NCBI RefSeq assembly: GCF_003945765.1
Contig: NZ_CP027712.1
Location: 3,782,001-3,846,000 of the forward strand
DNA from: Pseudomonas chlororaphis subsp. chlororaphis
Lineage (GTDB): Bacteria; Pseudomonadota; Gammaproteobacteria; Pseudomonadales; Pseudomonadaceae
Length of the DNA: 64,000 bases
Direction of reading: 5' to 3'
Part shown: positions 1 through 15,935 of the stretch, in pieces
How positions within the stretch are numbered: position 1 is the stretch's first letter
Layout: every line of letters starts with the position of its first letter
Position numbers and translations under genes: made by a program
The notes under the pieces: model-generated
Seen by the model: only the letters and a program-made list of their open reading frames with translations
What the model was told of the DNA's origin: nothing
The model's database searches: none

Positions 1-1
1 G

Positions 2-46: not shown

Positions 47-61
47 TTGAAAGGCTTGTTC

Positions 62-91
62 CAGGGCGTGCACCGAAGAACTGCACGCCTG
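62..91 (+). terminator. Hairpin after the TonB receptor gene
   Basis: CAGG-G-CGTGCA pairs with TGCACGCCTG around a 9-nt loop, 16 nt after the receptor stop codon. The T-tract is weak (a GCTTTT stretch lies about 10 nt further on). Position and stem strength suggest an intrinsic terminator. Confidence 0.5.
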
Positions 92-429
92 CCTGTGAGG
101 GCTTTTGCAGATCCCCCCCTGTGAAGGCCCTTGCATTGGCCGCTCACGCAGCGGCACCGCCCCTGTCGACCTCCGCGCCCTCCCTGGCGGCATTGTCCCG
201 TCGCCCACAACCCAGCCGCCCAGCGTTCGCCATCCGTCATTCGGTCGCGGCTATTTCACCACGCTTCACCGGAGGCGAGCCGTTCCTCAGGCTGCCGGGT
301 GGCCCGGGCGCCTTGCGCGGCGTGCAACGCCTACCCAGCGAAAATATGCCCACTGCCGAGCAAAATCCGCTGCAGCGCCGGCCCGTGGAGCGGGTATCGT
401 GGAGCAAAACCATCGGCCAGAGGTGCACT
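92..429. other. Leader/intergenic region before the LysR gene
   Basis: This stretch of about 340 bases holds no convincing gene. The LysR reading frame is open back to position 121, but the extra 103 codons are low-complexity (A/P/R/S-rich) and do not resemble a LysR N-terminus. It probably contains the promoter of the LysR gene. I see no clear operator. Confidence 0.5.
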
Positions 430-1341
430 GTGGCGTCCTATTCCTTGCGTCAATTGAAGTATTTCGTCACCACCGTCGACTGTGGCAGCGTCGCCGAGGC
501 GTCGCGCAAGCTGTACATCGCCCAGCCGTCGATCTCCACGGCGGTCAAGGGCCTGGAAGACAGCTTCGGCGTGCAGTTGCTGATCCGCCATCACGCCCAG
601 GGCGTGTCCCTGACCCCGGGCGGCGCGCGTTTCTACCGCAAGGCCCAGGAACTGCTGCGCATGGCTCATGAGTTCGAGCAGAACGCCCTGGCCGACAACG
701 ACGTGGTGTGCGGGCAGATCGATATCGGTTGCTTCGAGACGGTCGCCCCGCTCTACCTGCCACGGCTGATCGCCGGCTTTCGCCAGCGTTTTCCGGGGGT
801 GGAGATCCGCCTGCAGGACGGCGAGCAGCAGGAACTGGTGCAGGGCCTGACCGGCGGACGCTTCGACCTGGCGATCTTCTACGAACACGACCTGGACAGC
901 ACCATCGAGACCGAGGCGCTGATGGCGCCGCAACGGCCGTATGCCCTGGTGCCGGCCGGGCACCGTTTTGCCGGACAGGCCCAGGTGTCACTGCGCGACC
1001 TGGTGCTGGAGCCGATGATCCTGCTGGATGTGCAGCCCAGCCGCACCTACTTCGTGAGCATCTTCGAGGAGCTGCAACTGACGCCGAATATCGTCTTCGG
1101 CTCGCCGTCGATCGAGATGGTGCGCGGCATGGTCGGCCAGGGGTTCGGCTTTGCCTTGCTGGTGACCAGGCCCCACGGCAACAGCACCTATGACGGCCAG
1201 GAAGTGGTCTGTGTGGAGATTGCCGAAGATGTCACCGGCTCGGCGCTGGTGGCCGGCTGGCTGAAACGGGCGCAGCTGACCAAGCCTGCGCAGTTGTTCG
1301 TCGATTACTGCAAGGAGCAGTTCAAGGCCTGGCTCGCCTGA
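430..1341 (+). CDS. LysR-family transcriptional regulator
   Basis: A 303-residue LysR regulator, the usual family length. Residues 1-60 carry the winged helix-turn-helix (LRQLKYFVTTVDCGSVAEAS then AQPSISTAVKGLE). The rest is the periplasmic-binding-protein-like effector domain (GQIDIGCFETVAPLYLPRLI onward). The GTG at 430 is chosen because it begins exactly where LysR homology begins and has an AGAGG ribosome site 6 nt upstream; an open extension to 121 is rejected. It lies between a TonB receptor gene and a convergent MHS transporter operon. Its target is unknown, though it could serve either. The co-inducer cannot be read from sequence. Confidence 0.85.
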   Translation: MASYSLRQLKYFVTTVDCGSVAEASRKLYIAQPSISTAVKGLEDSFGVQLLIRHHAQGVSLTPGGARFYRKAQELLRMAHEFEQNALADNDVVCGQIDIGCFETVAPLYLPRLIAGFRQRFPGVEIRLQDGEQQELVQGLTGGRFDLAIFYEHDLDSTIETEALMAPQRPYALVPAGHRFAGQAQVSLRDLVLEPMILLDVQPSRTYFVSIFEELQLTPNIVFGSPSIEMVRGMVGQGFGFALLVTRPHGNSTYDGQEVVCVEIAEDVTGSALVAGWLKRAQLTKPAQLFVDYCKEQFKAWLA

Positions 1342-1444
1342 GGGCCAGCGAGCAGGAGCGGATCGCCCCGCCCGATGCATTGCCCATCATTGACCCATAC
1401 CGACGTCCTTGCCATCCGGCCGGGGCCGGCGCTGACAGGTGGGC

Positions 1445-2785
1445 TTAAGCTTGCGGATTGACCAGGAGTTGCGCAGCCCCATGCCCCTGGTGCCGGACGT
1501 CGCGGGTACAGGCGACGAAGTCTTCCTTGCGCAGCACTAGCAGGGCCAGCAGCGACGCGATCCCGGTCGCCACGTAGAAGTACCAGGGCGCGGTGATGTC
1601 GCCAGTGAGCTTGATCAGCCAGGTGGAAATCAGCGGCGCGCTACCGCCGAACACCGCCACCGGGATGTTGTAGGCCACGGCGATGCCGGTGGAGCGGATA
1701 CGGGTCGGCAGCAGCTCGCTCATCAGCGCGTAGGTCGAGGACGCATAGAGCCCGAACAGGATCGCCACGGCCATCAGCGGCCAGAACAAGGTGGCCGGGG
1801 TGGCGTTGGGCGCGGCCTTGAAGAACCAGTACATGGCCAGGGTCGCCAGGGTACCGATCACCATCAGGAACGGCTTGCGTCCGTAGCGATCGGTGAAGGC
1901 GCCGCCGAAGGGCATGACCACCGCCGCCGAGAGGCTGGCGACAAATACATAGAGCAAGGTGGTGCCACTGTCGAACTTGAGGGTGTTGGACATGTAGGTC
2001 GAGGCGAAGGTCAGCACCAGGTAAAAGATCGAGCTATGCAGGGTGATGATGAAGAACACCAAAGCGATCGGGCGCTTCCACTGCCAAACCTCGCGCAGCG
2101 GCGCCTTGGAGGTCTGCCCGGCCTGCAGCAAGGCGAGGAATTCCGGGCTGTCCTCCAGTTTCAGGCGGATATACAGCGAGATGAAGCCCAGGGGACCTGC
2201 GATCAGGAACGGGATCCGCCAGCCCCAATCCTGCATCAGCTCGGCGCCCAGGGCCCAGGTCATGCCATTGGCCACGGCGCCGCCCAGGAGCAGGCCGAGC
2301 ACAGCGGTGACCATCAGCCAGCAGGTGGCGAATCCCCGGCGCCCTGGGCTGGCGTATTCGGAAATGAAGCTGGTGATGGTGCCGATCTCGCCACCGGCAG
2401 AGAAACCCTGCACACAGCGGACCAGCACCAGGATCACCGGCGCGGCGATGCCGATGCTGGCGTAGGTCGGCAACAGGCCCAGCAGGCAGGTGGAGCCGGC
2501 CATCATCACCAGCACCGTGATCAGGGTCTTGCGTCGGCCGATCTTGTCGGCCAGAGGGCCGAAGAACAGGCCGCCCAGGGGCCGGATGAAGAAGCTCAGG
2601 GCAAAGGCCGCGAAGCTTGCCAGAAGGCTGCTGGTGGGATCGTCGGAAACGAAGAAGGCCTTGCCGATGTACAAGGCCAGGAAACCGTAGACGCCATAGT
2701 CGTACCACTCGATCAAGTGGCCGGAAGTGGCGCCGATGAAGGCCCGGCGCCGCTGGCGCTGGGGGTTGGAAGGTGGCACGCCCAT
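1445..2785 (-). CDS. MHS-family MFS metabolite:proton symporter
   Basis: Predicted inner-membrane symporter of the metabolite:H+ symporter (MHS) branch of the major facilitator superfamily, which takes up organic acids such as citrate, alpha-ketoglutarate or shikimate. The N-terminus RRRAFIGATSGHLIEWYDYG and the loop 2-3 motif GPLADKIGRRKTL are diagnostic, with about twelve hydrophobic segments in 446 residues. The ATG at 2785 is preferred because AGGAG lies 8 nt upstream. An in-frame ATG at 2815 would add ten residues but has no ribosome site. It is the last gene after thiolase and acyl-CoA ligase, which suggests it imports the acid that the ligase activates. The exact substrate is unknown. 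Confidence 0.85.
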   Translation of the reverse strand: MGVPPSNPQRQRRRAFIGATSGHLIEWYDYGVYGFLALYIGKAFFVSDDPTSSLLASFAAFALSFFIRPLGGLFFGPLADKIGRRKTLITVLVMMAGSTCLLGLLPTYASIGIAAPVILVLVRCVQGFSAGGEIGTITSFISEYASPGRRGFATCWLMVTAVLGLLLGGAVANGMTWALGAELMQDWGWRIPFLIAGPLGFISLYIRLKLEDSPEFLALLQAGQTSKAPLREVWQWKRPIALVFFIITLHSSIFYLVLTFASTYMSNTLKFDSGTTLLYVFVASLSAAVVMPFGGAFTDRYGRKPFLMVIGTLATLAMYWFFKAAPNATPATLFWPLMAVAILFGLYASSTYALMSELLPTRIRSTGIAVAYNIPVAVFGGSAPLISTWLIKLTGDITAPWYFYVATGIASLLALLVLRKEDFVACTRDVRHQGHGAAQLLVNPQA

Positions 2786-2828
2786 CGTGGGGACTCCTGT
2801 CGTAGTGCTATCCATGAAATGCCGCGTT

Positions 2829-4370
2829 TCAGAGGTTGCTCAAGGGCCCGGTGGGGTCCTGCAACCACTGGCGCAAGCGGGTCTTGAGAATCTTGCCATA
2901 GCTATTCTTGGGCAGCTCGGCGCAAAACAGGTACTTCTTCGGTTTCTTGAACGAGGCCATGCGCGCCAGGAACCAAAGGTTGAGCGCCTGCGCATCGAGG
3001 TTTCCGGGCGAACGCAGGACCACGAAGGCCACCACCGACTCGCCCCACTGCGGGTCGGCCTCCCCCACCACGCACACTTCGAATACCTCGGGGTGCTGGA
3101 TCAGCACTTCCTCGACTTCCCGCGGGTAGATGTTGCTGCCGCCGGAGATGATCACATCCTTGCAGCGATCGGTCAGGGTCAGGTAACCCCGCTCATTCAG
3201 GAAACCGATGTCACCGGTGAGCAGCCAGCCGTCCACCAGGGCCTCCCGGGTGGCTTGCGGATTGTCCCAGTACCCCTGCATCACCACAGCCCCGCGCACG
3301 GCGATTATCCCCCTCTCCCCGGCAGCCAGGGGTTGGCCCGCAGTATCCACCACGCGCACCTCAACGCAGGCGTGGGCACGCCCTACCGAGGCAGCAATGG
3401 TCGGCCAGTCAGCATGCCCGCGGTCGGCAATGGTCTCCCTGGACAGGGCGCTGATGGTCATTGGGCATTCGCCCTGGCCGTAGATCTGCACCAGCCGCGG
3501 GCCGAAGGTGTCCAGGGCCTGGGCGAGATCCGCCAGGTACATCGGGCCGCCGCCGTAGACGATGGTCTTGATCCCTTCGCCGCAATAGCCCTGCTGCCGG
3601 GCCTGCTGCACCATGCGCTTGAGCATGGTCGGCGCGGCAAACAGGCTGACCTGGCCCAGCGCCTGCGCCAGCTCGAACAACTCCGCCGCCTGGAACCCCT
3701 GGGACGTCGGCACCACATGCCGGGCGCCACAGCGCACATGGATGAAGTTGTAGAGGCCGGCGCCGTGAGACATCGGCGCGGCATAGACCACTGCGTCATC
3801 AGCGGCCACCGGATCCACGTCCAGCGGATAACACAAGGACATGGCGATCAGGTTGCCATGGGACAACATCACCCCCTTGGGGCGGCCAGTGGTCCCGGAG
3901 GTGTAGAACAGCCAGGCCAGGTCGTTGTCCTCCCGCAGGTGCGGCTCCACCAGTTCATCGCCCGGCACCCCGCCTTGCACGGCCAGCCCGGGCGCGGCCA
4001 GTTCGCGGCAGCCGGCAGGCAGGGCCTCGGCGTCGAAGCTCTGGCCCTCATCGGTGTAGATCAGCCGGGCCCCGGCATTGCCGGCAATCCAGGCGGCTTC
4101 CAGTGCATGCAGCTTGCTGTTGATCGGAACCGCCACCGCCCCGCTCCACCAGATGGCGTACAACAGTTCGAGATAACCGCAGCTGTTCTTCAGCAGCAGC
4201 GCCACTCGGTCGCCAGGCTCGATGCCGTACTCATGGCGCAGTTGCAGGGCACGTGCCCTGGCCTGCTCGGCAAACGCCTGGTAGTCAGCGACCTGGCGGC
4301 GACCCTCGAACAGAGCTCCCCGCCGCGGCCAGCGCTGGGCCGCATCGCGCAGCCAATGGGCGATGTTCAT
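2829..4370 (-). CDS. AMP-dependent acyl-CoA synthetase/ligase
   Basis: A 513-residue member of the ANL superfamily that should convert a carboxylic acid, ATP and CoA to an acyl-CoA. Visible motifs are the P-loop LFYTSGTTGRPKGVMLSH, a YGQGECP segment in the A5 position, LLTGDIGFLNERGYLTLTDR with the hinge region (DRCKDVIISGGSNIYPREVEE), and the C-terminal catalytic lysine in SYGKILKTRLRQW. The start codon lies 2 nt after the thiolase stop and its AAGG site sits inside the thiolase end, so the two are translationally coupled. With the thiolase and transporter it forms a small acid-catabolism operon. Medium/long-chain or aromatic specificity cannot be separated here. Confidence 0.85.
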   Translation of the reverse strand: MNIAHWLRDAAQRWPRRGALFEGRRQVADYQAFAEQARARALQLRHEYGIEPGDRVALLLKNSCGYLELLYAIWWSGAVAVPINSKLHALEAAWIAGNAGARLIYTDEGQSFDAEALPAGCRELAAPGLAVQGGVPGDELVEPHLREDNDLAWLFYTSGTTGRPKGVMLSHGNLIAMSLCYPLDVDPVAADDAVVYAAPMSHGAGLYNFIHVRCGARHVVPTSQGFQAAELFELAQALGQVSLFAAPTMLKRMVQQARQQGYCGEGIKTIVYGGGPMYLADLAQALDTFGPRLVQIYGQGECPMTISALSRETIADRGHADWPTIAASVGRAHACVEVRVVDTAGQPLAAGERGIIAVRGAVVMQGYWDNPQATREALVDGWLLTGDIGFLNERGYLTLTDRCKDVIISGGSNIYPREVEEVLIQHPEVFEVCVVGEADPQWGESVVAFVVLRSPGNLDAQALNLWFLARMASFKKPKKYLFCAELPKNSYGKILKTRLRQWLQDPTGPLSNL

Positions 4371-4372
4371 CC

Positions 4373-5551
4373 TCAGACCTTGACCGCTTGCAGGACGCTG
4401 GCGTAGTTGGCCACCGCCATGCCGCCCATGTTGAACAGCAAGCCGAACTCGGCACCGGGCACACCCAGGCCGATGGGTTTGCCGATCAGTTGGGCAAAGC
4501 CCAGGGCATGCATCGATACCCCGGTGGCCCCCACCGGATGCCCCTTGGCCTTGAGCCCGCCGGACAGGTTCACCGGCAGGCGTCCGCCCTGGCGCACGGT
4601 GCCGTCGTCGAGGGCCCGGTGCCCCTCGCCCCTGGGCGCCAGGCCCATGGCTTCGTAGATCAGCAATTCAGCGATGGTGAAGCAGTCGTGTACCTCAGCG
4701 AAACTCAGGTCGCCAAGGGTCACGCCGGCCTGGCGCAGGGCCCCGTGGATGGCCCGTCGCGGCCCCTCGAAGGCCAGCATGTCACGGCTCGACAAGGGCA
4801 GGAAGTCGTTCACCTGGGTCATGGCACGAATCGCCACCTGGCGTCGCATCGAACGGGCGCGCTGGGGCGAGGCCAGGATGATCGCCGCCGCACCGTCACT
4901 GATCAACGAGCAGTCGGTCAGGCGCAGTGGCGGTGCGATCAGCGGGTTGCCCTGGGAAACGTTGTTGCAGTGTTCAAAATCCATCACGCGGTGCATCTGT
5001 GCCAGGGGGTTGGCCATGGCATTGGCGTGGTTCTTCACCGCAATCATGGCCATCGAGGACAACGGGCTGTGGTAGCGGTCGGCGTACTGCTGCGCCACCC
5101 GGCCAAAAAGCTGGGCGAAACTCATGCCGGCCTCCTGGAGGGCGTTCTGGTAGCCGGCGCCGGCCAGGGCCCGAGTGACTTCGACGGTGCTGTTGCCGGT
5201 CATTTTCTCCGCGCCAACCACCAGTACCAGTTCGGCGGCGCCGCTGCGGATCGCGTTGATCCCGGCCTGGATCGCCGCCGAACCGGAGGCGCAAGCGTTC
5301 TCGCAGCGAGTGGCGGGCTTGAAGCGCAGTTGCGGATCGGCCTGGAGCATCAGCGAGGCGGGGAAACCATCCGCCACCAGGCCGGAGTTGAAGTGCCCGA
5401 GAAACAGCGCGTCGATTTGTGCAGCCTCGATCTCAGCGTCTGCCAGGGCCTCGCGGGTAACCTGGACGATCAGGTCCTCGAGGTTCAGGCCGTCCAGACG
5501 ACCGAAAGGGCTATGGGCGGCAGCGACGATGGATACGGAATCGTGAATCAT
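4373..5551 (-). CDS. Thiolase (acetyl-CoA acetyltransferase family)
   Basis: A 392-residue thiolase-fold enzyme. The nucleophilic cysteine lies in TRCENACASGSAAI (about C87), and the C-terminal GGLKAKGHPVGATGVSMH supplies the active-site histidine. The CENACASG form and NxSGGLKAKGHP are closest to the SCP-x/lipid-transfer type thiolases rather than FadA. Its probable role is thiolytic cleavage of a beta-ketoacyl-CoA made from the acid activated by the next gene. It is first in the minus-strand operon and divergent from the PAS-LuxR gene, which is a likely regulator. Confidence 0.85.
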   Translation of the reverse strand: MIHDSVSIVAAAHSPFGRLDGLNLEDLIVQVTREALADAEIEAAQIDALFLGHFNSGLVADGFPASLMLQADPQLRFKPATRCENACASGSAAIQAGINAIRSGAAELVLVVGAEKMTGNSTVEVTRALAGAGYQNALQEAGMSFAQLFGRVAQQYADRYHSPLSSMAMIAVKNHANAMANPLAQMHRVMDFEHCNNVSQGNPLIAPPLRLTDCSLISDGAAAIILASPQRARSMRRQVAIRAMTQVNDFLPLSSRDMLAFEGPRRAIHGALRQAGVTLGDLSFAEVHDCFTIAELLIYEAMGLAPRGEGHRALDDGTVRQGGRLPVNLSGGLKAKGHPVGATGVSMHALGFAQLIGKPIGLGVPGAEFGLLFNMGGMAVANYASVLQAVKV

Positions 5552-5618
5552 GTGATTTTCTTCTTCCTTGAAGCGGGTATTCCATACAATGATTCAACAC
5601 CCGAATCACACGCTAGTT

Positions 5619-5651
5619 GGGGGAACTACGTACGGCAGTAAGTAGTCCCCC
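5619..5651. promoter_or_regulatory. Dyad between thiolase operon and LuxR gene
   Basis: GGGGGAACTAC (5619-5629) and GTAGTCCCCC (5642-5651) form a near-perfect dyad with one extra A in the left arm, lying between divergent genes. LuxR-type regulators bind dyads of roughly this size, so it is a candidate operator for the adjacent PAS-LuxR protein. It is directly followed by homopolymer runs of seven C, seven A and four G. The binding protein is inferred only from position. Confidence 0.4.
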
Positions 5652-5700
5652 GCCCCCCCAAAAAAAGGGGTGCGCCGACAAACCCGAGGCAGGATGCCTG

Positions 5701-6273
5701 ATGACCCTACACGCCCAGCAATTCCAGGACCTCGAGCGCCTGGCCTTCCAGGTTTCCCCCGCACCGCAGATGATCACCGGGCATCGCCGGATGCTCGATT
5801 GCAACCAGGCCTTCGTACGCCTGTTCGGCTACGAGCGCGAACACTTGCAAGGCCACCTGACCCTGCTGTTGTACCCCTCCCAGGCCGACTACCAGAGCAT
5901 CGGCGAACGCAGCGAGCACTGGCTGCGCAACGGACCCGGCACCTTCTACTCCGACGAACGCTTCATGCAGCATCGCAACGGCGAGGTGTTCTGGGCCCGC
6001 GCCCACGGTTTTTCCCTGACGGCCGAGGACCCGTTCAAGCTGATGGTCTGGCATTTCGAGCGCCTGGACCGCCAACCGGCGCCGATGATCCAGTTGACCC
6101 CGCGCGAACGGGAAATCTCGCTGCATATCGTCAATGGCCTGACCTGCAAGGAAGTGGCGCGCAAGCTGGGCATTTCCCACCGCACCGTGGAAGTCCACCG
6201 CGCCCGGCTGATGAAGAAGCTTCAGGCCAAGAACAGCGCAGAACTGGTGTCGAAGATCATCTTCATCAGTTGA
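5701..6273 (+). CDS. PAS domain LuxR-family transcriptional regulator
   Basis: 190 residues. Residues about 8-120 form a PAS-like sensor (ITGHRRMLDCNQAFVRLFGY is the typical start). Residues about 132-188 form a LuxR/FixJ helix-turn-helix (LTPREREISLHIVNGLTCKE, GISHRTVEVHRARLMKKL). There is no receiver domain, so a ligand sensed by the PAS domain rather than phosphorylation is likely. The ATG at 5701 is used; the frame is open upstream through the homopolymer tract but without PAS homology. It is divergent from the thiolase/ligase/transporter operon, which is probably its target. Confidence 0.85.
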   Translation: MTLHAQQFQDLERLAFQVSPAPQMITGHRRMLDCNQAFVRLFGYEREHLQGHLTLLLYPSQADYQSIGERSEHWLRNGPGTFYSDERFMQHRNGEVFWARAHGFSLTAEDPFKLMVWHFERLDRQPAPMIQLTPREREISLHIVNGLTCKEVARKLGISHRTVEVHRARLMKKLQAKNSAELVSKIIFIS

Positions 6274-6277
6274 GCGC

Positions 6278-6382
6278 CTAGGCAAGCATGTCGCCGGCAC
6301 TGATGCGCAGCAGCTGCAATGGCCCGATAGTCGGGCCCTCCACGCTGCCGTCCTCTGCCAGGACCTGGTGGACGGCCCCCAT
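6278..6382 (-). CDS. Possible 34-residue ORF or gene remnant
   Basis: A short minus-strand frame reads MGAVHQVLAEDGSVEGPTIG and then PLQLLRISAGDMLA before a TAG stop. Its composition looks protein-like rather than like a GC-shadow frame, and the frame stays open a little further upstream (FLAFKMGAVHQ). No ribosome site is seen before the ATG. It may be the C-terminal remnant of a decayed gene, with the adjacent hairpin at 6396-6425. I do not recognise the family. Confidence 0.25.
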   Translation of the reverse strand: MGAVHQVLAEDGSVEGPTIGPLQLLRISAGDMLA

Positions 6383-6395
6383 CTTGAAAGCCAAA

Positions 6396-6425
6396 AAAAT
6401 CCGATGCCTTACGACATCGGATTTT
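6396..6425. terminator. Bidirectional intrinsic terminator
   Basis: AAAATCCGATG and CATCGGATTTT are perfect 11-bp arms around an 8-nt loop, flanked by a run of seven A on the left and T4 on the right. It can stop transcription from the LuxR gene on the plus strand and from the chitinase operon on the minus strand. Confidence 0.8.
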
Positions 6426-6508
6426 CATTGCTTGCCCTCAGCGATCCAGTCAATAGGCTTGACTGTCGAGCATCCGGCACGTCTGCCGGATGCCTCCTTG
6501 ATCGAGTG

Positions 6509-7567
6509 CTAGTAGGCGGTCTGCGGGTGGGGCTCATCCTGGGTTGAGGAGGACAGCTTGCCACCGTTGATCAACGGCCCGTAGCGCCGGCTGAACTCCT
6601 GGTTGTAGGGCACGTGGTCCTTGTTGACCCCGCTGTCCCAATTGACCGACCAGGTCATCAGGCCCTTGATCGACAGCCCTTTGGCATCGAGGCGTTTGAA
6701 CGCATTGGCAACGGCCGCCGGGTTGACCACGTATCCGGTGGCCGCGGCATCGACGTTGGCGGGCAGGCCAATGACGAATTTGTCAGCGGCAATCCTGGTG
6801 AAACCGCGAGTACCACTCACCAGGCTTTCGGTCAGGTAATAGAGGAAGTCCTCTTTCATGGCGTCGTTGTTCTGGGCGATCCAGGCCCCCTTGCCGTTGT
6901 TGGCCTCCTGAACCCAGAGGCCATCGCCGCCCTGGTTGTAGAACTGCGGCGCGATGAAGTCGTAGTAGCCTTCCAGCGCCTTGAGGTAGTCGACGTATCG
7001 ACCGGCAGCAGTCAGGTAGGGGAACTCCGGCGCCATGCTGATGATGAAATGCTTGCCCTCGGCAGCATAGTGATCCTTGACCAGCTTCAGCGCGGCCGGC
7101 AGGACGATCTTGTTGCTGGCGAAGTCAATCGCGCTCTGTTCAAGATCGATGTCCAGCCCGTCAAAGCCGTAGGTTTCCACCAGACGGATGATTTCATTGG
7201 CCAGGGGCTGTTCGTGGCCCGGGTTCAACGCGATATGAGCATCGGCGCCCCCCAGGGACATCAGCACCGCCCTGCCCTGGCTGTTCAGCACGCCCACCTG
7301 GCGACGAAACTCGGCATCGGACAGGTTGTACGGCTTGAACGTCGGAATACCGCTGCCTTTCATGAACGCCACGGCCACCACGTTGTAGTCGCGGGGCACA
7401 TCCTCCAGGTTCATATTGGCAAACTGCCCGCGCTGGTAGCCGTCCGAGGGACCGGCCGGCCAGTTGTGCCAGTAGCCCATGAGGATTTTCTTGCCATCCA
7501 GGCTCGGCATCCGCGACGCGGCATCGTCCTGCGTCGTTTTCAGTTGGGTAAAGTCAATCTGTGACAT
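6509..7567 (-). CDS. GH18 chitinase without signal peptide
   Basis: A 352-residue single-domain family 18 glycoside hydrolase, expected to cut chitin by substrate-assisted retaining catalysis. The catalytic motif is FDGLDIDLEQ (D136, D139, D141, E143 as acid/base). SLGGADAH is the preceding conserved strand, APQFYNQ the substrate-binding Tyr strand, and MTWSVNWD the terminal Trp strand. The start has AAGGA 7 nt upstream, and the protein begins MSQIDFTQLKTTQDD, which is hydrophilic with no Sec, Tat or lipobox signal. It follows the LPMO gene by 37 bp, forming a two-gene operon. Other signal-less Pseudomonas chitinases (ChiC of P. aeruginosa) reach the medium by non-classical release. Confidence 0.9.
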   Translation of the reverse strand: MSQIDFTQLKTTQDDAASRMPSLDGKKILMGYWHNWPAGPSDGYQRGQFANMNLEDVPRDYNVVAVAFMKGSGIPTFKPYNLSDAEFRRQVGVLNSQGRAVLMSLGGADAHIALNPGHEQPLANEIIRLVETYGFDGLDIDLEQSAIDFASNKIVLPAALKLVKDHYAAEGKHFIISMAPEFPYLTAAGRYVDYLKALEGYYDFIAPQFYNQGGDGLWVQEANNGKGAWIAQNNDAMKEDFLYYLTESLVSGTRGFTRIAADKFVIGLPANVDAAATGYVVNPAAVANAFKRLDAKGLSIKGLMTWSVNWDSGVNKDHVPYNQEFSRRYGPLINGGKLSSSTQDEPHPQTAY

Positions 7568-7604
7568 GTTCTAATCCTTCAGAACGTTTTAATGATCCGC
7601 AGAC

Positions 7605-8240
7605 TTATTTGAAGTCGACGTCGAAGGCCTGATAGAAGGCGTTGCCGGTATTGGCCACGATCCACATCAGGACTATCACGTGACGGCCCTTTTTATTGGC
7701 CGGCAGCTTCACTTCATGATCGACCTTGGCCTTCAGTTCGCCGGCATGGCTGTAGTAAGGCACCTGCGGATAGAAGTCCTCGGCGAAAGGTTGAGCCTCC
7801 AGTTGGGCGCGGGTGATGCGCTGTTTCGGGTCCCAGCCGTCCTTGGTGATCAGCCAGCGATAACCACGGGTGGTGTGCGGCGCGGTGTACTGCCAGGTCA
7901 CCTTGAAGATCTGGCCGGGGTTGACGTTGAGCGTCGGCCAGGCGAAGGCGCGACCGAGCTTCTTGCTCATCTCCTCATCGGTGAAGTTGACGCAGTCCCG
8001 GGCATCGGTCTTGCCACCGCTGAGGATGAAGCCATCGGCCGGCGGCACGTCGCTTGGGTTATCCGTGTTGAACGGTGCAGGGAACGGACCCGCGGCCAGG
8101 GCCGGGAAGTTCTTGCCGCCTTCCATCTCATTGACCTGCCAACCGCCCAACAGGCCCAGGTCGATGGCGACTGCGCCGCGGGAGGCTGGGGAGGTGACGC
8201 GACCGTGGCGAAGCGGTGATTGGGTTTGTGGTTTGTTCAT
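7605..8240 (-). CDS. AA10 chitin-active lytic polysaccharide monooxygenase
   Basis: A 211-residue single-domain AA10 (CBM33) protein that should oxidatively cleave crystalline chitin with copper. HGRVTSPASRG holds the first histidine-brace residue (H12), PHTTRGYRW the second (H122), and GNAFYQAFDVDF the axial aromatic residue. In known LPMOs the first histidine is the mature N-terminus created by signal peptidase. Here it is preceded only by MNKPQTQSPLR, and the start is fixed by GGAG 8 nt upstream of the ATG, with no signal-like sequence upstream in any frame. Removal of 11 residues after Arg11 by some other route would be needed. First gene of an operon with the chitinase. Confidence 0.9.
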   Translation of the reverse strand: MNKPQTQSPLRHGRVTSPASRGAVAIDLGLLGGWQVNEMEGGKNFPALAAGPFPAPFNTDNPSDVPPADGFILSGGKTDARDCVNFTDEEMSKKLGRAFAWPTLNVNPGQIFKVTWQYTAPHTTRGYRWLITKDGWDPKQRITRAQLEAQPFAEDFYPQVPYYSHAGELKAKVDHEVKLPANKKGRHVIVLMWIVANTGNAFYQAFDVDFK

Positions 8241-8371
8241 GTTTATTGCTCCATTGATTTAAGAAACTCTCCCTTTCCAAAGGAGAGGTCTTCAAATTAA
8301 CCGAGCTGGATTTTCTGTCCACGGGCCCATTTTTCGGTCTGCATCACGCTGGCAGCGGAATCTCCCGAGAA

Positions 8372-8391
8372 TACTGGATATATAACCAGTA
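8372..8391 (-). promoter_or_regulatory. LexA-like (SOS-box) palindrome upstream of LPMO-chitinase operon
   Basis: TACTGGATATATAACCAGTA has the CTG-N10-CAG spacing, AT-rich core and TA flanks of a LexA site. By eye it agrees at 17 of 20 positions with the enterobacterial consensus. The deviations are the T after CTG (here G) and the two bases before CAG. It lies about 130 bp upstream of the LPMO start. LexA or another phage-type repressor is the inferred binder; no promoter elements could be fixed with confidence. Confidence 0.45.
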
Positions 8392-8481
8392 CCACTAGAT
8401 TTCTCCTACCCAACTTGAAGCAAAAGTCCTACCTGTCCAGGCGGCGCTTGCCGGCGATGCGGCCAATACCCAATCTGCATC

Positions 8482-8560
8482 TGCAGGAGCGCAGCTTGCT
8501 CGCGAAGCGTCGCATCAGGCACACCGCGTTGCCTCTATCGCCAGCAAGCCGGCTCCTACA
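8482..8560. repeat. REP-type inverted pair (GTAGGAGC family)
   Basis: TGCAGGAGCGCAGCTTGCTCGCG at the left and a degenerate reverse copy (TATCGCCAGCAAGCCGGCTCCTAC) at the right form the paired palindrome seen repeatedly in this window. The rest of the 8241-8602 gap holds the LPMO leader and the LexA-like site, with no gene visible. Confidence 0.7.
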
Positions 8561-8602
8561 AAGAGCGGGTGCCCTCCTTTACGAAGCCGGCGGCCATTGA
8601 CC

Positions 8603-9643
8603 TCAGCGCGCCGCCCAGGCGTTGAAGCGCTGTTCCAGCTCCTCGCCATGGTCCACCCAGAACTCCGCGTCCACCGCCCGCGCGCCGGCCAGGTTGGCCT
8701 CGGCGGTGGGCAGCTGCCGTTGCACCGCCGCCGGCAGCAACGCCAGCGCGTCACGGTGCACCGGCCCGTAGGGGATCTCCTCGGAGAACACCTTCTGGGT
8801 CTGCGGCTGGCTGGCGAAGGCGATGAAGTCTTCGGCCAGCGCCTTGTTCGGCGTGCCCTTGACCACCGCCCAGTACTCCGGGTCGTACAGGCTTTGCGGC
8901 CAGACGATGCTCAGTTTCATGCCTTCCTTCTGCGCCGAGGCGATCCGCCCGTTGTAGGCCGCGCTCATCACCACGTCACCGGCGATCAGCCATTGCGGCG
9001 GCTGCGCGCCCGCCTCCCACCACTGGATATTGCCCTTGATCTGATCGAGCTTGGCGAACGCCCGGGTCACGCCCTCGGGAGTGCCCAGCACCTGGTACAG
9101 CTGGTCCGGCTTGACCCCGTCGGCGAGCAAGGCGATTTCCAGGGTGTACTTGGCGCCCTTGCGCAAGCCGCGCTTGCCGGGGAAGTCGGCGACGTTCCAG
9201 AAGTCTGCCCAGGAGGTCGGCGCCTTGGCCAGCTTGTCCTGGTCGTAGGCCATGACCATCGACCAGACATAGGTGGCCACCCCGCATTCGCTCAGGGTCC
9301 CCGGCACGAATTGCGCCGCGTCGCCGAAGCGCGCCGGGTCGAGGCGTTCGAACAAGCCTTCGTCACAGCCGCGCAACAGCTCCGGGCTTTCGACTTCGAC
9401 CACGTCCCAACTGGTATGGCCGACATCGACCATGGCCTTGATTTTCGACAGCTCACCGTTGTATTCGCCGGCGACCACGCGTCCTGCGCCGCTGGCGGTG
9501 AAAGGTTGGAAGTAGGCCTTGTCCTGGGCCTGCTTGGTGGCACCGCCAAAGGAGATGACGGTGAGGCTCTGCGGTGCGGCCGCAACCGCGGTGCACAACA
9601 GGGCCAGGGCAAAGGGAACACAGCAACGCAAGGATCTGGACAT
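8603..9643 (-). CDS. ABC transporter substrate-binding protein, polyamine type
   Basis: 346 residues with a Sec signal peptide (SLRCCVPFALALLCTAVAAA) and the PotD/spermidine-putrescine-binding fold (LTVISFGGATKQAQDKAYFQ near the N-terminus; SWADFWNVADFPGKRGL, and WWEAGAQPPQWLIAGDVVMS). It is periplasmic and should bind an amine-like solute. No ATPase or membrane component is present in the operon; the operon's own importer is an APC permease. It may hand ligand to a transporter encoded elsewhere or act in sensing. Last gene of the 17.7-8.6 kb operon, 54 bp after the transaminase. Confidence 0.85.
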   Translation of the reverse strand: MSRSLRCCVPFALALLCTAVAAAPQSLTVISFGGATKQAQDKAYFQPFTASGAGRVVAGEYNGELSKIKAMVDVGHTSWDVVEVESPELLRGCDEGLFERLDPARFGDAAQFVPGTLSECGVATYVWSMVMAYDQDKLAKAPTSWADFWNVADFPGKRGLRKGAKYTLEIALLADGVKPDQLYQVLGTPEGVTRAFAKLDQIKGNIQWWEAGAQPPQWLIAGDVVMSAAYNGRIASAQKEGMKLSIVWPQSLYDPEYWAVVKGTPNKALAEDFIAFASQPQTQKVFSEEIPYGPVHRDALALLPAAVQRQLPTAEANLAGARAVDAEFWVDHGEELEQRFNAWAAR

Positions 9644-9697
9644 GTAGCGGTTCCTCGAATAGGCCGACGCGCCCGCGCGCGCCGGCCGCTTTTGGGC

Positions 9698-11080
9698 CTA
9701 CAGACGACCGTATTCGCGGGCGGTCCTGTCTACGGCGGTACGGGTCTTGTCGACCAGTTCATCAATGTCGGCGTGGCTGGCCACCAGGGCCGGGGCCATG
9801 ATCATCCGGCCCAGGGTCGAGCGGATGATCAGGCCCTCTTCGAAGCCGATGGTGCGGCAACGCCAGGCCATGTCGTTCTCGTTGGCGAAGCGCTTGCGGC
9901 TGGCCTTGTCTTCGGCGAACTGCAAGGCGGCGACCAGACCCGCGCCCTGCACTTCGCCAATCAACGGATGGTTGTCGAACACCTCGCGCAGGCAGCGCTG
10001 CAGGTACGGCCCGGTCTCGTGCTTGACCCGGCTGACGATGCCTTCGTCGCGCAGGGCCTTGAGGTTGGCGATGGCCACCGCCGCCGCCACCGGGTGGCCG
10101 GAATAGGTCAGGCCGTGGGCGAACACCCCGCCCTGCTCCACCAGCACCTCGGCCATGCGCCTGGAGAGGATCAGACCGCCCATGGGGATGTAGCCGCTGG
10201 TCAGGCCCTTGGCGATCGACAGGGTGTCGGGCTCGAAGCCGAAATGCTGGTGGGCGAACCACTCGCCGGTACGGCCGAAACCGCCGATCACTTCGTCGGC
10301 GCACAGCAGCACGTCGTACTGGCGGCAGATGCGCTGGATTTCCGGCCAGTAGCTTTCTGGCGGGAAGATCATGCCGCCGGCGCCCTGGAAGGGTTCGGCG
10401 ACGAAGGCCGCGACATTCTCGGCGCCCAGTTCGAGGATCTTCTCCTCCAGCTGCCGCGCAGCGCGCAGGCCGAACTCGGCCGGGGTCAGGTCGCCTTCGT
10501 GGGCGAACCAGTACGGCTCGTCGATGTGCGCCACGTCCGGGATCACCCCGCCCATGTCGTGCATGAACTTCATCCCGCCCAGCGCCGTGGCGCCGAGGGT
10601 CGAGCCGTGGTAGCCGTTCCAGCGGCCGATCATGATCTTCTTCTGCGGCTTGCCGAGGATCTGCCAGTAGCGGCGCACGGTGCGGATCAGCACCTCGTTG
10701 GCCTCGGAGCCGGAGTTGGTGTAGATCGCGTGGCTGTAGTGCGCGGGCAGCAGGCTGAACAGCAGCTCCGACAGCTCGACCACCGCCGGGTGGGTGGTGT
10801 GGAAGAACATGTTGTAGTACGGCAGCTGCTCGAGCTGCTGGCTGGCGGCCGCGGCCAGGTCCTTGCGGCCGTAGCCGAGGTTGGTGCACCACAGGCCCGA
10901 CATGCCGTCCAGGTAGCGCTTGCCGTCATTGTCCCAGAGCGCCAGGCCCTCACCGCGCACGATCACCCGCGGCCCTTCGGCGTTCAGCGCCTTCTGATCG
11001 AGGAACGCATGAATGTGGTGCGCGGCATCCGCGGCCTGGTAGTCGCCGGTGCTGCGCACGGGTTTGATCTGAACGGTCAT
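9698..11080 (-). CDS. Class III PLP-dependent aminotransferase
   Basis: 460 residues, fold type I. The Schiff-base lysine is in SIAKGLTSGYIPMGG, the PLP phosphate-binding NSGSEANE and the aspartate in LLCADEVIGGFGRTG are all present, and SGLWCTNLGYGRKDLA is typical of omega-amino acid/diamine:pyruvate transaminases (SpuC-like). It should convert a terminal amine to an aldehyde, feeding the aldehyde dehydrogenase of the same operon. Its ATG overlaps the permease stop by 4 bp. The amine is not identified; putrescine-like compounds are a reasonable guess because the binding protein is of the polyamine type. Confidence 0.88.
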   Translation of the reverse strand: MTVQIKPVRSTGDYQAADAAHHIHAFLDQKALNAEGPRVIVRGEGLALWDNDGKRYLDGMSGLWCTNLGYGRKDLAAAASQQLEQLPYYNMFFHTTHPAVVELSELLFSLLPAHYSHAIYTNSGSEANEVLIRTVRRYWQILGKPQKKIMIGRWNGYHGSTLGATALGGMKFMHDMGGVIPDVAHIDEPYWFAHEGDLTPAEFGLRAARQLEEKILELGAENVAAFVAEPFQGAGGMIFPPESYWPEIQRICRQYDVLLCADEVIGGFGRTGEWFAHQHFGFEPDTLSIAKGLTSGYIPMGGLILSRRMAEVLVEQGGVFAHGLTYSGHPVAAAVAIANLKALRDEGIVSRVKHETGPYLQRCLREVFDNHPLIGEVQGAGLVAALQFAEDKASRKRFANENDMAWRCRTIGFEEGLIIRSTLGRMIMAPALVASHADIDELVDKTRTAVDRTAREYGRL

Positions 11081-12513
11081 TGCGAGTCTCCTTGCGGGTT
11101 TTTATCGAGAGTGCCGAGCACGCTGGCCAGCGGCTCCGGCTTGAACAGTGGCTTGCCCATCACGCCCTTGATCCACAGCACGGCGATGATCGAGACGATC
11201 AGCAGCACCAGGCCTGCGTAGGCAAAAATCGAAAAGGTCATCTCCGGGCTGGGCGAGACGTTCCAGATCGCAAACAGCATGCCGACGATGCCGAACAGCT
11301 GCGGCAAGGGGTAGAACGGCGTACGGAACGGCCGCGCCACCTGCGGGTAACGGCGACGCAGGGCGATGACATTGACGTGGGTGATGATGTAGGCCAGCAG
11401 CCAGGCCAGGGCCGCCGAGAGCAGCAGCTGGTTGATCGCGTCGGCATGGTCGTGCATCAGCAGCAACGGCAGGCCGGTGACCGCGGCGATGAACAGCACC
11501 GCCACCCAGGGCGCGCCGGTGCGCTTGCCCTGAAGCTTGAACATGCCAAAGGCCTGGCCATTGCGAGCCATGCCGAACAGCATGCGCGGGATCGCTGCCA
11601 GCGAACTGTTGAGGGTGCTGCAGGTGGCGGTGATCGCGGCGGTCACCAGGAACACCTTGCCCGCCTCGCCGAACACCGTGGTGGCGAACAGGTAATGCGG
11701 CAGGCCGTTGCTGGCCAGTTCCGCCTGGGGCACGGTGAGCAAGGCGCCCAGGCCATACAGACTGATGATCACGAAGATGATGGTCAGGCCGAGCATCATC
11801 GAGCCCGGGATATTGCGCTCCGGACGCCGGGTTTCTTCCACCAGCGGGCAGACGAACTCGGCGCCGACGAAGCCCCAGACCGCCATCGCCGTCAGGGCGA
11901 CCACCCCCAGGCCCAGGGGGTTCCAGTGGGCGCTGTCGAACAACGTCGGGTTGGGCGCGACAATGTCGCTGTTCATCGCGCTCAGGCCCATCACCAGCAG
12001 GACCACGGTCATCACCACCGCCAGCACCGTCTGCAGGCGGGCGAAGATGTCGATGTTGAACAGGTTGAGCACGGTGAACAGCGCCAGTACCCCCAGGGCC
12101 ACGGTCAGCGGCGGCATGGCGTGCGGGTAGACCTTGTCGATGATGAACTCCATCAGCAACAGCTCGGCCGACAAGGCGAACATCGCTACCACTATGTAGC
12201 CGGAAAAGGTCGCCAGGATCGCCGGGAACTGGCCGATGGCGACCTCGGTGTAAGTGCTCAGGCTGCCGGCGCGGGGGATCATCAGCGCCAGTTCGGAGAA
12301 CGAACAGGCGTAGCTCAGGGCCAGCAGGTAGGCCAGGCCCAGGGGCACGATAAAGCCCAGGCCAGCGATGCCGACGCCTTGCAGCATCAGCACCATCACG
12401 CCTTGTGAGACCACCAGGCCGATGGCCACCGCCAACAGCGCGGTGAGGCCGAGTTTCTTGCGACTCGCGGGCGGCGCCAGGGCGCCGGTTTGCACGCTTG
12501 CATTGCTGTTCAT
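11077..12513 (-). CDS. APC-superfamily amino acid/amine permease
   Basis: 478 residues with about twelve membrane segments, in the amino acid-polyamine-organocation superfamily. The N-terminal unwound-helix region (VSQGVMVLMLQGVGIAGLGF) and GSLSTYTEVAIGQFPA match APC members, and VWGFVGAEFVCPLVEETRRP is the conserved loop after helix 6. It is expected to import the operon's amine or amino acid substrate at the inner membrane. It is coupled with the transaminase gene by a 4-bp overlap and lies 57 bp after the aldehyde dehydrogenase gene. Confidence 0.88.
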   Translation of the reverse strand: MNSNASVQTGALAPPASRKKLGLTALLAVAIGLVVSQGVMVLMLQGVGIAGLGFIVPLGLAYLLALSYACSFSELALMIPRAGSLSTYTEVAIGQFPAILATFSGYIVVAMFALSAELLLMEFIIDKVYPHAMPPLTVALGVLALFTVLNLFNIDIFARLQTVLAVVMTVVLLVMGLSAMNSDIVAPNPTLFDSAHWNPLGLGVVALTAMAVWGFVGAEFVCPLVEETRRPERNIPGSMMLGLTIIFVIISLYGLGALLTVPQAELASNGLPHYLFATTVFGEAGKVFLVTAAITATCSTLNSSLAAIPRMLFGMARNGQAFGMFKLQGKRTGAPWVAVLFIAAVTGLPLLLMHDHADAINQLLLSAALAWLLAYIITHVNVIALRRRYPQVARPFRTPFYPLPQLFGIVGMLFAIWNVSPSPEMTFSIFAYAGLVLLIVSIIAVLWIKGVMGKPLFKPEPLASVLGTLDKNPQGDSQ

Positions 12514-12570
12514 CGGTTGCTCCGTCTTGTTGTTCTATTTTTTTGAAGATCGGTGCCGCGTTTCGGGGCC

Positions 12571-14064
12571 TCAGCCGCGCAGTTGAATCCAGGTGGTTTT
12601 CAGCTGGGTGTACTTGTCGAACGAATGCAGCGACAGGTCGCGGCCGAAGCCCGACTGCTTGCCGCCGCCGAAGGGCACGGTGACATCCAGCGCATCGACG
12701 GTATTCACCGACACGGTCCCGGCATTCAGCCGCCGCGCCACTCGATGCGCGCGATTGAGGTCGTCGGTCCACAGCGAAGCGGCCAGGCCATAGATGTGCT
12801 GGTTGGCCAGGGCCACCGCCTGGTCTTCGTCGTCGAACAGCGTGATCGCCAGCACCGGGCCGAACACCTCTTCGCGGGCCAGGGTCATGTCGGCGGTCAC
12901 GCCGCTGAAGATGGTCGGCTCGATAAAGTTGCTCGAACCGTCGATGCTCAACTGCCGACCGCCGCACACCAACTGCGCGCCCTCGGCCTGGGCCTGCTCG
13001 ATGTACTGCCTTATGCGCCGGGCCTGCCGCGCATCGACGATGGCCCCGGCCCGGCTCGCCGGGTCCAGCGGATTGCCCGGCTGCCACTGGCGCGCCTTGG
13101 CCACCAGGCGCTCGATGAACCCATCGGCGATCGAGCGCTGCACCAGCAGGCGCGAGTTGGCCGAGCAGACTTCGCCCTGGTTGAAGAAGATGCCGAACGC
13201 GGCTTTCTCGGCCGCCAGGTCCAGGTCCTGGCAATCGGCGAACACCAGGTTCGGGCTCTTGCCGCCGCACTCCAGCCAGACCTGCTTGAGGTTCGATTGC
13301 GCGGCGTACTGCATGAAGTACTTGCCGACCTCGGTGGAACCGGTGAACACCAGGGCATCCACCTCCATGTGCAGGCCGAGGGCGCGACCGGCCTCCTCGC
13401 CCAGGCCCGGCACCACGTTGAGCACGCCCTTGGGAAAGCCGGCTTCGATGGCCAGCTCGGCCAGGCGCAGGGCCGAGAACGGCGACTGTTCGGCCGGCTT
13501 GAGCACCACGCTGTTACCGGCGGCCAGGGCCGGGGCCAGCTTCCAGGCAGCCATGTCCAACGGGAAATTCCACGGCACCACCGCGCCGATCACTCCCAGC
13601 GGCACCCGGGTGATGGTCGCCAGGACATTGCTGGCGCTCGGCGCCACCTGGTCATAGAGCTTGTCGAGGCTTTCGCCGTACCAGGCAAATACATGGGCCG
13701 CGCCCGGCACATCGATATTCCAGGCATCCATCACCGGCTTGCCCATGCTCAGGGAATCGAGCAAGGCCAGTTCGTCGCGGTGCTCCAGCATCAGCTGCGA
13801 CAGGCGCAGCAGGATCGCCTTGCGCTCGCCCGGCGCCATCCTGGCCCAGGAGCCCTGCTCGAACGCACGACGGGCGCTGCGCACCGCCCGGTCGACCTCG
13901 ACCGCACCGCAGGCGGCCACCTGGGCCAGGCGTTTCTCGGTGGCCGGGTTGACCACATCGAAGCGTGCGCCGCTCTCGGCCTGGCACGCCTCACCGTCGA
14001 TAAAGGCGCTGTCGATCAGGCGTTGGCGTTGCGCCAGGGCTGTCCACTCGTTGAAATCTTTCAC
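12571..14064 (-). CDS. NAD(P)-dependent aldehyde dehydrogenase
   Basis: 497 residues, standard ALDH length. The cofactor/substrate motif LECGGKSPNLVF holds the general-base glutamate, and FNQGEVCSANSRL holds the catalytic cysteine. The set resembles PuuC/KauB enzymes that oxidise omega-amino aldehydes. The start is GTG at 14064 with AAGGA about 7 nt upstream. It should act on the aldehyde produced by the transaminase in the same operon. The downstream permease starts after a 57-bp gap. Confidence 0.88.
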   Translation of the reverse strand: MKDFNEWTALAQRQRLIDSAFIDGEACQAESGARFDVVNPATEKRLAQVAACGAVEVDRAVRSARRAFEQGSWARMAPGERKAILLRLSQLMLEHRDELALLDSLSMGKPVMDAWNIDVPGAAHVFAWYGESLDKLYDQVAPSASNVLATITRVPLGVIGAVVPWNFPLDMAAWKLAPALAAGNSVVLKPAEQSPFSALRLAELAIEAGFPKGVLNVVPGLGEEAGRALGLHMEVDALVFTGSTEVGKYFMQYAAQSNLKQVWLECGGKSPNLVFADCQDLDLAAEKAAFGIFFNQGEVCSANSRLLVQRSIADGFIERLVAKARQWQPGNPLDPASRAGAIVDARQARRIRQYIEQAQAEGAQLVCGGRQLSIDGSSNFIEPTIFSGVTADMTLAREEVFGPVLAITLFDDEDQAVALANQHIYGLAASLWTDDLNRAHRVARRLNAGTVSVNTVDALDVTVPFGGGKQSGFGRDLSLHSFDKYTQLKTTWIQLRG

Positions 14065-14097
14065 CGCGGATTCCTTGTTCTTATTGAAAAATCGTTA

Positions 14098-15258
14098 TCA
14101 ATGCTTGCAGAGGTATTCGGCCAGGCGGTCCATCAGCCGGTCGCAGGCCGCCATCTGCTCGACGCTGACGAACTCGTCCGGCTTATGGCCCTGGTCCATG
14201 CTGCCGGGGCCGCAGACCACCGCCGGGATGCCGGCCTGGTCGAACAATCCGCCTTCGGTGCCAAAGGCCACGGTGCCGAAGGCATCGCTCCCGCACAGTT
14301 GCGCCACCAGTTGCGCGGCGGCGCTTTCGGGAGCAGTCGCCAAACCTGGATAAGCCGAGATCGCTTCGAAGCGGATCGCCGTATCGGCCTTGATTGCCTG
14401 CATCGTCGGCAACAGCTCCTGTTCGGCATAGCCTTGCAGTTCGTCCACCACTGCCCGGGGTTCGAAGGCCGGCAAGGCGCGCACCTCGAAGTCGAAGCGG
14501 CAGTCGGCCGGGACGATATTCAGCGCCGTGCCGCCCTGGATCACCCCGACCTGCACGGTGGAAAACGCCGGGTCGAAGCGGGCGTCGTGATGCTCGGGGG
14601 CCGCCAGGCGCCGGCCGATCTCCCCCAGCCGGCCGATCAGCCGCGCCGCCTGCTCGATGGCGTTGACCCCATAAGGCGCATAGGCCGAGTGGCACGGTGC
14701 GCCGTGCACATGGCAACGCATGGCCAACTTGCCCTTGTGGCCTAGCACCGGTTTGAGCTCGGTGGGCTCGCCGATCAGGCACAGCGCCGGTTGCGGGATG
14801 CGCTGTGGCAGCACTTCCAGCAGGCTGCGCACGCCGAGGCAGCCGACTTCCTCGTCATAGGAGAACGCCAGGTGCACCGGCCGGCGCAGCGGGCTTTCGA
14901 GAAACAGCGGCACCGCGGCCAGCACCGAGGCCAGGTAGCCTTTCATGTCGGCGGTGCCGCGCCCGTAGAGCTTGCCGTCGCGCTCGGTCAGGCTGAAGGG
15001 TTCAAGCGTCCAGGGCTGGCCGTCCACCGGCACCACGTCGGTGTGCCCGGACAGCACGATGCCGCCTTCCAGCGCCGGACCGATGCTGGCCAGCAGGTTG
15101 GCCTTGGTCCGTTCGGCGTTGTAGATCAGCTCGCAGCTCACGCCCAGGCCGTGCAGGTAGTCGCGCACGAACTCGATCAAGGCCAGGTTCGAATCGCGGC
15201 TGACCGTGGCAAAGCCCACCAGCCTGGCCAGCAAGGCGCGGCTGCGCAGCTCACTCAT
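14098..15258 (-). CDS. M20-family metallohydrolase, ArgE-like
   Basis: A 386-residue dizinc amidohydrolase annotated in relatives as acetylornithine deacetylase. Metal and catalytic residues are visible in LSGHTDVVPVDGQPW, GTADMKGYLAS and YDEEVGCLG, with a dimerisation-domain histidine in HDARFDPAFSTVQVG. In an operon with transaminase and aldehyde dehydrogenase genes it more probably removes an acyl, formyl or carbamoyl group from a catabolic intermediate than makes arginine. Its start overlaps the DUF1028 stop by 8 bp. Confidence 0.85.
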   Translation of the reverse strand: MSELRSRALLARLVGFATVSRDSNLALIEFVRDYLHGLGVSCELIYNAERTKANLLASIGPALEGGIVLSGHTDVVPVDGQPWTLEPFSLTERDGKLYGRGTADMKGYLASVLAAVPLFLESPLRRPVHLAFSYDEEVGCLGVRSLLEVLPQRIPQPALCLIGEPTELKPVLGHKGKLAMRCHVHGAPCHSAYAPYGVNAIEQAARLIGRLGEIGRRLAAPEHHDARFDPAFSTVQVGVIQGGTALNIVPADCRFDFEVRALPAFEPRAVVDELQGYAEQELLPTMQAIKADTAIRFEAISAYPGLATAPESAAAQLVAQLCGSDAFGTVAFGTEGGLFDQAGIPAVVCGPGSMDQGHKPDEFVSVEQMAACDRLMDRLAEYLCKH

Positions 15259-15925: not shown

Positions 15926-15935
15926 GGCGAACTCC

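Follow-up and report, generated by a model that had tools for sequence, protein, structure and literature searches.

Group A and group B colicins and the bacteriocins of Pseudomonas are LexA or RecA dependent and are released by lysis. Group B colicins leave the cell by way of a prophage lysis module encoded elsewhere in the genome, and the idea that bacteriocins use such distant modules has also been put forward for Pseudomonas (PMC6240691). In P. protegens, tailocins are described as being released by explosive lysis upon treatment with mitomycin C (PMC7815802); in P. aeruginosa, explosive lysis is reported to be absent from a recA mutant (PMC4834629). In type 10 secretion (T10SS), represented by chiWXYZ of Serratia marcescens and by YenTc release in Yersinia entomophaga, chitinases need a holin and an endolysin to exit; release in Y. 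entomophaga occurs through lysis of a subpopulation of cells (PMC5778951, PMC10847048), and T10SS release is termed SOS insensitive by Sitsel et al. (PMC10847048).

Here, we describe a two-gene unit of Pseudomonas chlororaphis subsp. chlororaphis that encodes a lytic polysaccharide monooxygenase (LPMO) and a chitinase, both without signal peptides, behind a palindrome of the LexA type. The window, that is, the whole 64,000-nucleotide stretch analyzed, corresponds to positions 3782001-3846000 of a single 6.8 Mb contig. The LPMO gene (7605..8240, minus strand; 211 aa) comes first and the chitinase gene (6509..7567, minus strand; 352 aa) begins 37 bp further on, the pair spanning 6509-8240. Pfam profiles assign the LPMO to family AA10 (LPMO_10, E 1.1e-29; 104.9 bits against a cut-off of 23) and the chitinase to family GH18 (Glyco_hydro_18, E 3.8e-12; 47 bits against a cut-off of 29.6), and the chitinase translation contains DGLDIDLE, a form of the DxxDxDxE motif of GH18 chitinases. 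By sequence, the LPMO is nearest to the solved structure 3uam and the chitinase to 4axn (CHITINASE C1), from S. marcescens; the closest LPMO among the matches listed is from P. chlororaphis (97%). Judged by eye, the unit consists of these two genes only, with no immunity gene beside the cargo.

The preliminary description of this locus had called both enzymes signal-less, with their starts fixed by ribosome sites, and we reach the same result. By eye and by hydropathy, neither protein has a signal-like N-terminus, and 8 bases separate the ribosome site GGAG of the LPMO (8249..8252, minus strand) from its ATG. Longer products with signal peptides are excluded because in-frame stops upstream of both ATGs close the two reading frames. 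A third LPMO of the genome provides the contrast, with what looks like a classical signal peptide that ends in QQAFA directly before HGY (MRKLPLAITLGLASLASQQAFA followed by HGY; by eye and hydropathy). Given the missing signal, the LPMO and the chitinase of the window are presumably cytoplasmic before release. The same genome contains a paralogous pair of signal-less LPMO and chitinase (G000:C1:2280880-2281506; L104, L108), which has no LexA box.

The N-terminus of the LPMO shows a further feature. His12 (codon 8205-8207) aligns with residue His1 of CBP21 (2bem) and is preceded by the 11-residue prefix MNKPQTQSPLR (8208..8240, minus strand). The two copper histidines are present: His12 and His122 are invariant in 23 aligned rows, and a copper role is predicted for His122 because the ARHST motif of CBP21 aligns with it. 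Across 82 LPMOs (that of the window, the paralogue, and 80 relatives), the residue directly before the His1 equivalent is Arg in 67 and Lys in 15, Leu precedes this junction in 81, and the prefix comprises 11 residues in 69 and 9 in 13 and is otherwise variable; the signal-bearing third LPMO has Ala at the position held by Arg or Lys. A copper-active LPMO is stated, in general terms, to require this histidine as its free N-terminus (PMC9131454). Because the Arg/Lys-His junction is conserved in 82/82 proteins and a free N-terminal His is needed, we infer a maturation cut between Arg/Lys and His, and the junction suggests that the LPMO is activated by proteolysis. For ChiC of P. aeruginosa, a chitinase that the preliminary description had also called signal-less and for which PMC11218509 indicates no apparent signal peptide, the same source reports processing of the first 11 residues. 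The AlphaFold model of the LPMO, made with 23 rows in the alignment, is of low quality (mean pLDDT 63.8, with residues 1-13 and 33-78 below 50) and gives no further information on this point.

The palindrome upstream of the unit (8372..8391, minus strand) reads TACTGGATATATAACCAGTA, and TACTGGTTATATATCCAGTA on the gene strand, where its CTG lies at -149 from the LPMO start, and it equals its own reverse complement save at two central positions. It is present as originally reported and matches TACTGTATATATATACAGTA, the enterobacterial LexA consensus, at 17/20 positions. Across the 6,808,187-base chromosome, 6 sites, the palindrome included, lie within 3 mismatches of TACTGTATATATATACAGTA, compared with 0 for a reversed-pattern control. 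One of these sites precedes a radical SAM gene (PF04055), one precedes yebG (PF07130), two are located in a prophage region recognized by eye (G000:C1:1595000-1621000; L091, L092), and one, with 3 mismatches, lies between divergent genes, one of them without a Pfam match (G000:C1:1017477-1017496; L083). The prophage region also has an endolysin of its own, of the phrog_181 type. Within the window alone, TACTG-N10-CAGTA with as many as 2 mismatches allowed occurs about as often as chance predicts (10 times against 8.1 expected), but the palindrome is the sole mismatch-free instance.

In the preliminary description, the change at the fourth position of each half-site was held to weaken the LexA call. 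The recA box of this genome reads TACTGGCTACTTATACAGGT and the lexA boxes read CACTGTATATAATTCCAGTC and CACTGTATAAAAAGACAGAG; each has one changed half, and a single CTGG or CCAG half is therefore normal in the genome, which speaks for LexA. The first lexA box reads CTGTATATAATCCCAG in 26/30 Pseudomonas loci, and its CCAG half is found in 28/30. The window box, with both halves changed (CTGG...CCAG), is alone in this among the sites compared, the combination occurring in 0/7 other SOS sites of the genome. Scored with a position matrix built from the seven other SOS site groups, the window box reaches 27.7 bits, and the runner-up scores 16.1 bits in the 384 kb of this genome that were scanned (the window and 16 further stretches, each of 20 kb). 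Four of the seven groups were chosen for their match to the consensus, which biases the matrix toward consensus-like sites, and site 1017477 was left out. Leave-one-out scores were 32.5 bits for the radical SAM gene, 27.9 for yebG, 27.7 and 26.1 for the prophage sites, 20.3 and 17.9 for lexA, and 17.4 for recA; the window box thus outscores those of recA and lexA.

A scan with one genome per species yielded 124 encoding loci, the best 80 of which were used for comparison. The preliminary description had made its LexA reading depend on the palindrome recurring in close relatives, and the outcome favors LexA: in the window and in 66 of the best 80 relatives, CTG-N10-CAG lies 143-152 bp ahead of the LPMO start. 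In the tree of 82 LPMOs, a single branch (support 100/99) separates all 67 box-bearing rows from the other 15 LPMOs, the paralogue of the same genome among them, which have no box at that place. In one-per-cluster promoters (49 of the 67, less than 85% alike), the box holds 1.42 bits per column compared with 0.72 in the upstream flank and 0.54 in the downstream flank; since it is more conserved than its flanks in this dereplicated set, its conservation does not merely mirror kinship. CTG and CAGT are invariant in all 67 boxes and both arms are conserved, which argues against the palindrome being just a conserved part of the promoter, an AT-rich -10 region that happens to look palindromic; the near-invariant TATTT directly after CAG in the box clade would fit such a region, but we regard this explanation as very improbable.

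At the fourth position of the 67 boxes, T occurs 49 times and G 18 times, and the paired position holds C in 57 and A in 10, combining as T/C in 39, G/C in 18 (the window included), and T/A in 10. The doubly changed form of the window, found in these 18 of 67 box rows and seen at 0/7 other SOS sites of the genome, is a point against LexA control of the unit, and it could mean that the operator of this particular strain is a relic that LexA no longer binds. We consider that improbable, given that other species (L011, L017, and L020, besides L002, a P. chlororaphis) retain the 20-bp sequence without any change and that single changed halves occur in the recA and lexA boxes. Further points against LexA control come from relatives with weak boxes (10.4 bits in L055, 12.9 bits in L044 and L065). 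The CT-N12-AG spacing of the palindrome would also suit a LuxR-type (quorum sensing) box. LuxR boxes have a usual centre sequence, however, and it is absent from the palindrome. The core of the palindrome instead agrees with the boxes that lexA, recA, and yebG have in this genus, and canonical LexA forms are numerous among the relatives. We therefore rejected the LuxR-type box as the main reading and give it hardly any weight, even though chiC of P. aeruginosa is listed as regulated by quorum sensing and RpoS (PMC3224232).

A wider sample of the genus comprised 199 genomes, 58 of which (our own included) have a relative at E 1e-30; at the same threshold, a search of 368 further genomes sampled from the class gave no close relative of the LPMO outside the genus. 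From 59 matches outside our own genome, 7 of at most 53% identity were left out, and the 52 promoters fetched had the box in place in 36 cases, at -85 in 1, and not there in 14, with 1 not placeable. This sample overlaps the first 80 relatives (for example, L196 and L077) and is hence not independent, and its counts were made without a tree. One boxed and one box-less copy occur together in our own genome, in G176, and in G197. On the box-less side of the tree, L075 and L077 (= L196) have a palindrome, TACTGGCTGGAT(A/G)TCCAGTA, at -84/-85, perhaps gained independently. The LPMO and box of L005, labeled Pantoea sp. Cy-639, group with Pseudomonas rows, and this locus may be mislabeled or transferred.

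Taken together, this footprinting supports the identification of the palindrome as a LexA operator. The unit has two features expected of a LexA regulon member, namely, a genus-type CTG-N10-CAG operator upstream and the conservation of this operator beyond its surroundings in orthologues, and we predict from these sequences, with high confidence, that the operon is controlled by LexA. Of the interpretation offered in the preliminary description, SOS-controlled release, it is thus the LexA part that gains strong support, from the 67 box rows on one side of a branch, the 15 others without the box, and the genus-type box itself. A second LexA-like protein of the genome (4299643) was set aside as the regulator, because the LexA2 target known from P. 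putida differs from CTG-N10-CAG.

The chitinase gene directly follows the LPMO gene in 66/80 loci, with a gap of 36-49 bp. Seven box-bearing relatives (L025, L037, L040, L046, L047, L053, and L056) have no chitinase in the examined DNA of up to 4 kb on each side, which counts against the proposed LexA-controlled pair; the same lack was found, at the same range, in L075-L081. Four neighbors in the window, a PAS-LuxR regulator, a solute-binding protein, and an aminotransferase and a thiolase named by eye, gave 0 tblastn matches in the 80 loci within up to 4 kb on each side; the box therefore travels with the operon, and the LPMO-chitinase unit seems to move as a cassette together with its operator. 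The gene of the PAS-LuxR regulator (5617-6273), unmatched around the operon in the 80 relatives at this range, is convergent to the operon.

Another element of the promoter region points to further control, again a consideration against the simple LexA account. This second conserved element, about TGTAGG-N-CTTTTGC ... GGGTAGGA (8403..8434, minus strand), lies upstream of the LexA box and is perhaps the site of an additional regulator; traces of it can be seen by eye in paralogues without the box. In L036, it takes the form of an inverted repeat, TGTAGG-N6-CCTACA, reminiscent of GacA boxes. The leader contains a hairpin, CTCTCCTTTGGAAAGGGAGAG (8267..8287, minus strand), just before the ribosome site, similar by eye in many relatives, that could be a post-transcriptional control element; the fold of the leader as a whole is unexceptional (z -1.40; 24/200 shuffles as good). 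A terminator-like hairpin after the chitinase gene (6395..6426, minus strand) marks a possible end of the unit, 4 such sites occurring in the stretch compared with 2.1 expected by chance. The box is situated some 130 bp upstream of the ATG, and scanning its vicinity for the consensus revealed no sigma-70-like promoter (0.5 expected by chance), a further consideration against the simple LexA account.

As to the route of release, no holin or peptidoglycan hydrolase gene coupled to the operon was seen among the ORFs of window positions 1-16000 (by eye; two neighbors by Pfam), and no lysis gene was recognized beside the operon in the five relatives with ORFs listed. The lysis cassettes that we found are more than 2 Mb from the operon. 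A tailocin-type cluster is located between a mutS-like gene and recA (1345812-1381902; mutS and tail genes recognized by eye) and encodes, according to Pfam, a repressor with HTH and Peptidase_S24 domains, Phage_holin_3_5 (PF16085), Amidase_2 (PF01510), and a GH19-type endolysin (PF00182), along with an Rz-like spanin. The endolysin family phrog_181 is present in 37/37 box-bearing genomes and in 111/162 others (148/199 overall), and also in 13/14 genomes whose fetched LPMO promoters have no box in place; this association follows phylogeny, as those 13/14 box-less carriers indicate, and it was dropped as support for release.

Release by lysis is plausible and, if LexA does control the operon, likely. 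The lack of a linked lysis gene is nonetheless a point against it, and together with the distance of the lysis cassettes it would suit an operon that is controlled by LexA but whose enzymes exit otherwise, by slow leakage and ordinary cell death, in vesicles, or through another exporter. ChiC of P. aeruginosa is described as a secreted enzyme even though it has no identified signal peptide (PMC11218509). Two observations stand against such an exit, which we hold to be unlikely but the most serious of the alternatives: no N-terminal export signal was seen on the enzymes, and tailocin lysis in related strains is likewise triggered, in the laboratory, by the SOS response (PMC7815802).

The account that we favor, and think fairly likely as a whole, is that of a LexA-repressed two-gene unit that is induced by DNA damage, its products being released by tailocin lysis and the LPMO precursor being activated outside the cell. 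LexA would repress transcription of the LPMO-chitinase unit until DNA damage activates RecA and LexA cleaves itself, upon which both enzymes would accumulate in the cytoplasm. Through its self-cleaving (S24-type) repressor, the tailocin-type cluster would respond to the same signal; the holin, amidase, endolysin, and spanin of the cluster would burst the cell, and the two enzymes would be carried out in the lysate, in the way that prophage lysis frees group B colicins. The LPMO would be made as an inactive precursor, with its copper-binding His behind a prefix of 9-11 residues that has Arg or Lys at its end; after release, a protease outside the cell would expose this histidine. The enzymes might then attack fungi, insects, or other chitin, to the benefit of surviving kin. 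This account builds on the LexA-type operator and its conservation, the missing export signals, the lysis cassettes, and the Arg/Lys-His junction, all read from sequence; its predicted steps are the binding of LexA, induction, exit by lysis, activation by proteolysis, and the use of the enzymes.

More tentatively, and with somewhat less than balanced confidence, we propose a widespread, SOS-triggered form of "public goods by suicide," in which damaged Pseudomonas cells fill with chitinase and zymogen LPMO and burst via tailocin lysis, with a protease cut after Arg/Lys activating the LPMO only outside. If true, this would, to our knowledge, be the first case of an LPMO that matures without a signal peptidase and of a chitinolytic operon under LexA control. 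Searches of open-licence PMC papers turned up no account of an LPMO or chitinase operon under SOS control, nor any binding or induction results, and the preliminary description likewise knew of no SOS-controlled LPMO-chitinase operon. The proposal would bring the breakdown of extracellular polymers under control of the DNA damage response, and it would link the field of altruistic lysis (colicins, tailocins, T10SS) to the biology of LPMOs, in which the active site needs a free N-terminal His. It also offers a testable answer to how signal-less pseudomonad chitinases exit the cell, and one prediction is that plant-associated Pseudomonas attack chitin when competitors or hosts damage their DNA.

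Compared with the described systems, the operon shares SOS control, here predicted from its promoter, with the colicins and Pseudomonas bacteriocins, and, like group B colicins and Pseudomonas bacteriocins, it is without a lysis gene of its own (PMC6240691). A signal-less protein, an SOS box, and lysis functions elsewhere in the genome make up the profile of a colicin-like cargo, and all three are found here. Unlike colicins and bacteriocins, however, the operon has a chitin-degrading cargo, only two genes, and one LexA box rather than two overlapping ones. The tailocin-type cluster of the genome represents the probable exit route, the explosive lysis of tailocins and pyocins, whereas the operon lies outside this cluster and has a LexA-type box of its own. 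Its enzymes resemble ChiB and ChiC of Serratia in lacking signal peptides, but type 10 secretion differs in its coupled lysis cassette and ChiR regulator (PMC5778951, PMC10847048). Membership in T10SS was rejected, because no linked holin or endolysin was seen among the ORFs of window positions 1-16000 or beside the operon in five relatives, and T10SS release is described as insensitive to SOS (PMC10847048). With the AA10 LPMOs CBP21 and CbpD, the operon LPMO has the family and the copper histidines in common; Serratia CBP21 (Cbp21) has a Sec signal (PMC5778951), the removal of which leaves His1, whereas the operon LPMO has no signal but a short prefix ending in Arg or Lys. A phage origin of this LPMO was rejected, as tblastn against 50,697 phage records returned 8 records, all distant (at most 33.3% identity) and named as Listeria and Enterococcus phages. 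ChiC of P. aeruginosa is, like the operon chitinase, a GH18 enzyme without an apparent signal peptide (PMC11218509); it differs in its listing under quorum sensing and RpoS (PMC3224232) and in its FnIII and CBM5/12 domains, and the cited portions of these sources mention no LPMO partner. The combination of a LexA-type operator, a signal-less chitinolytic cargo, and a distant lysis cassette is different from each of these known cases.
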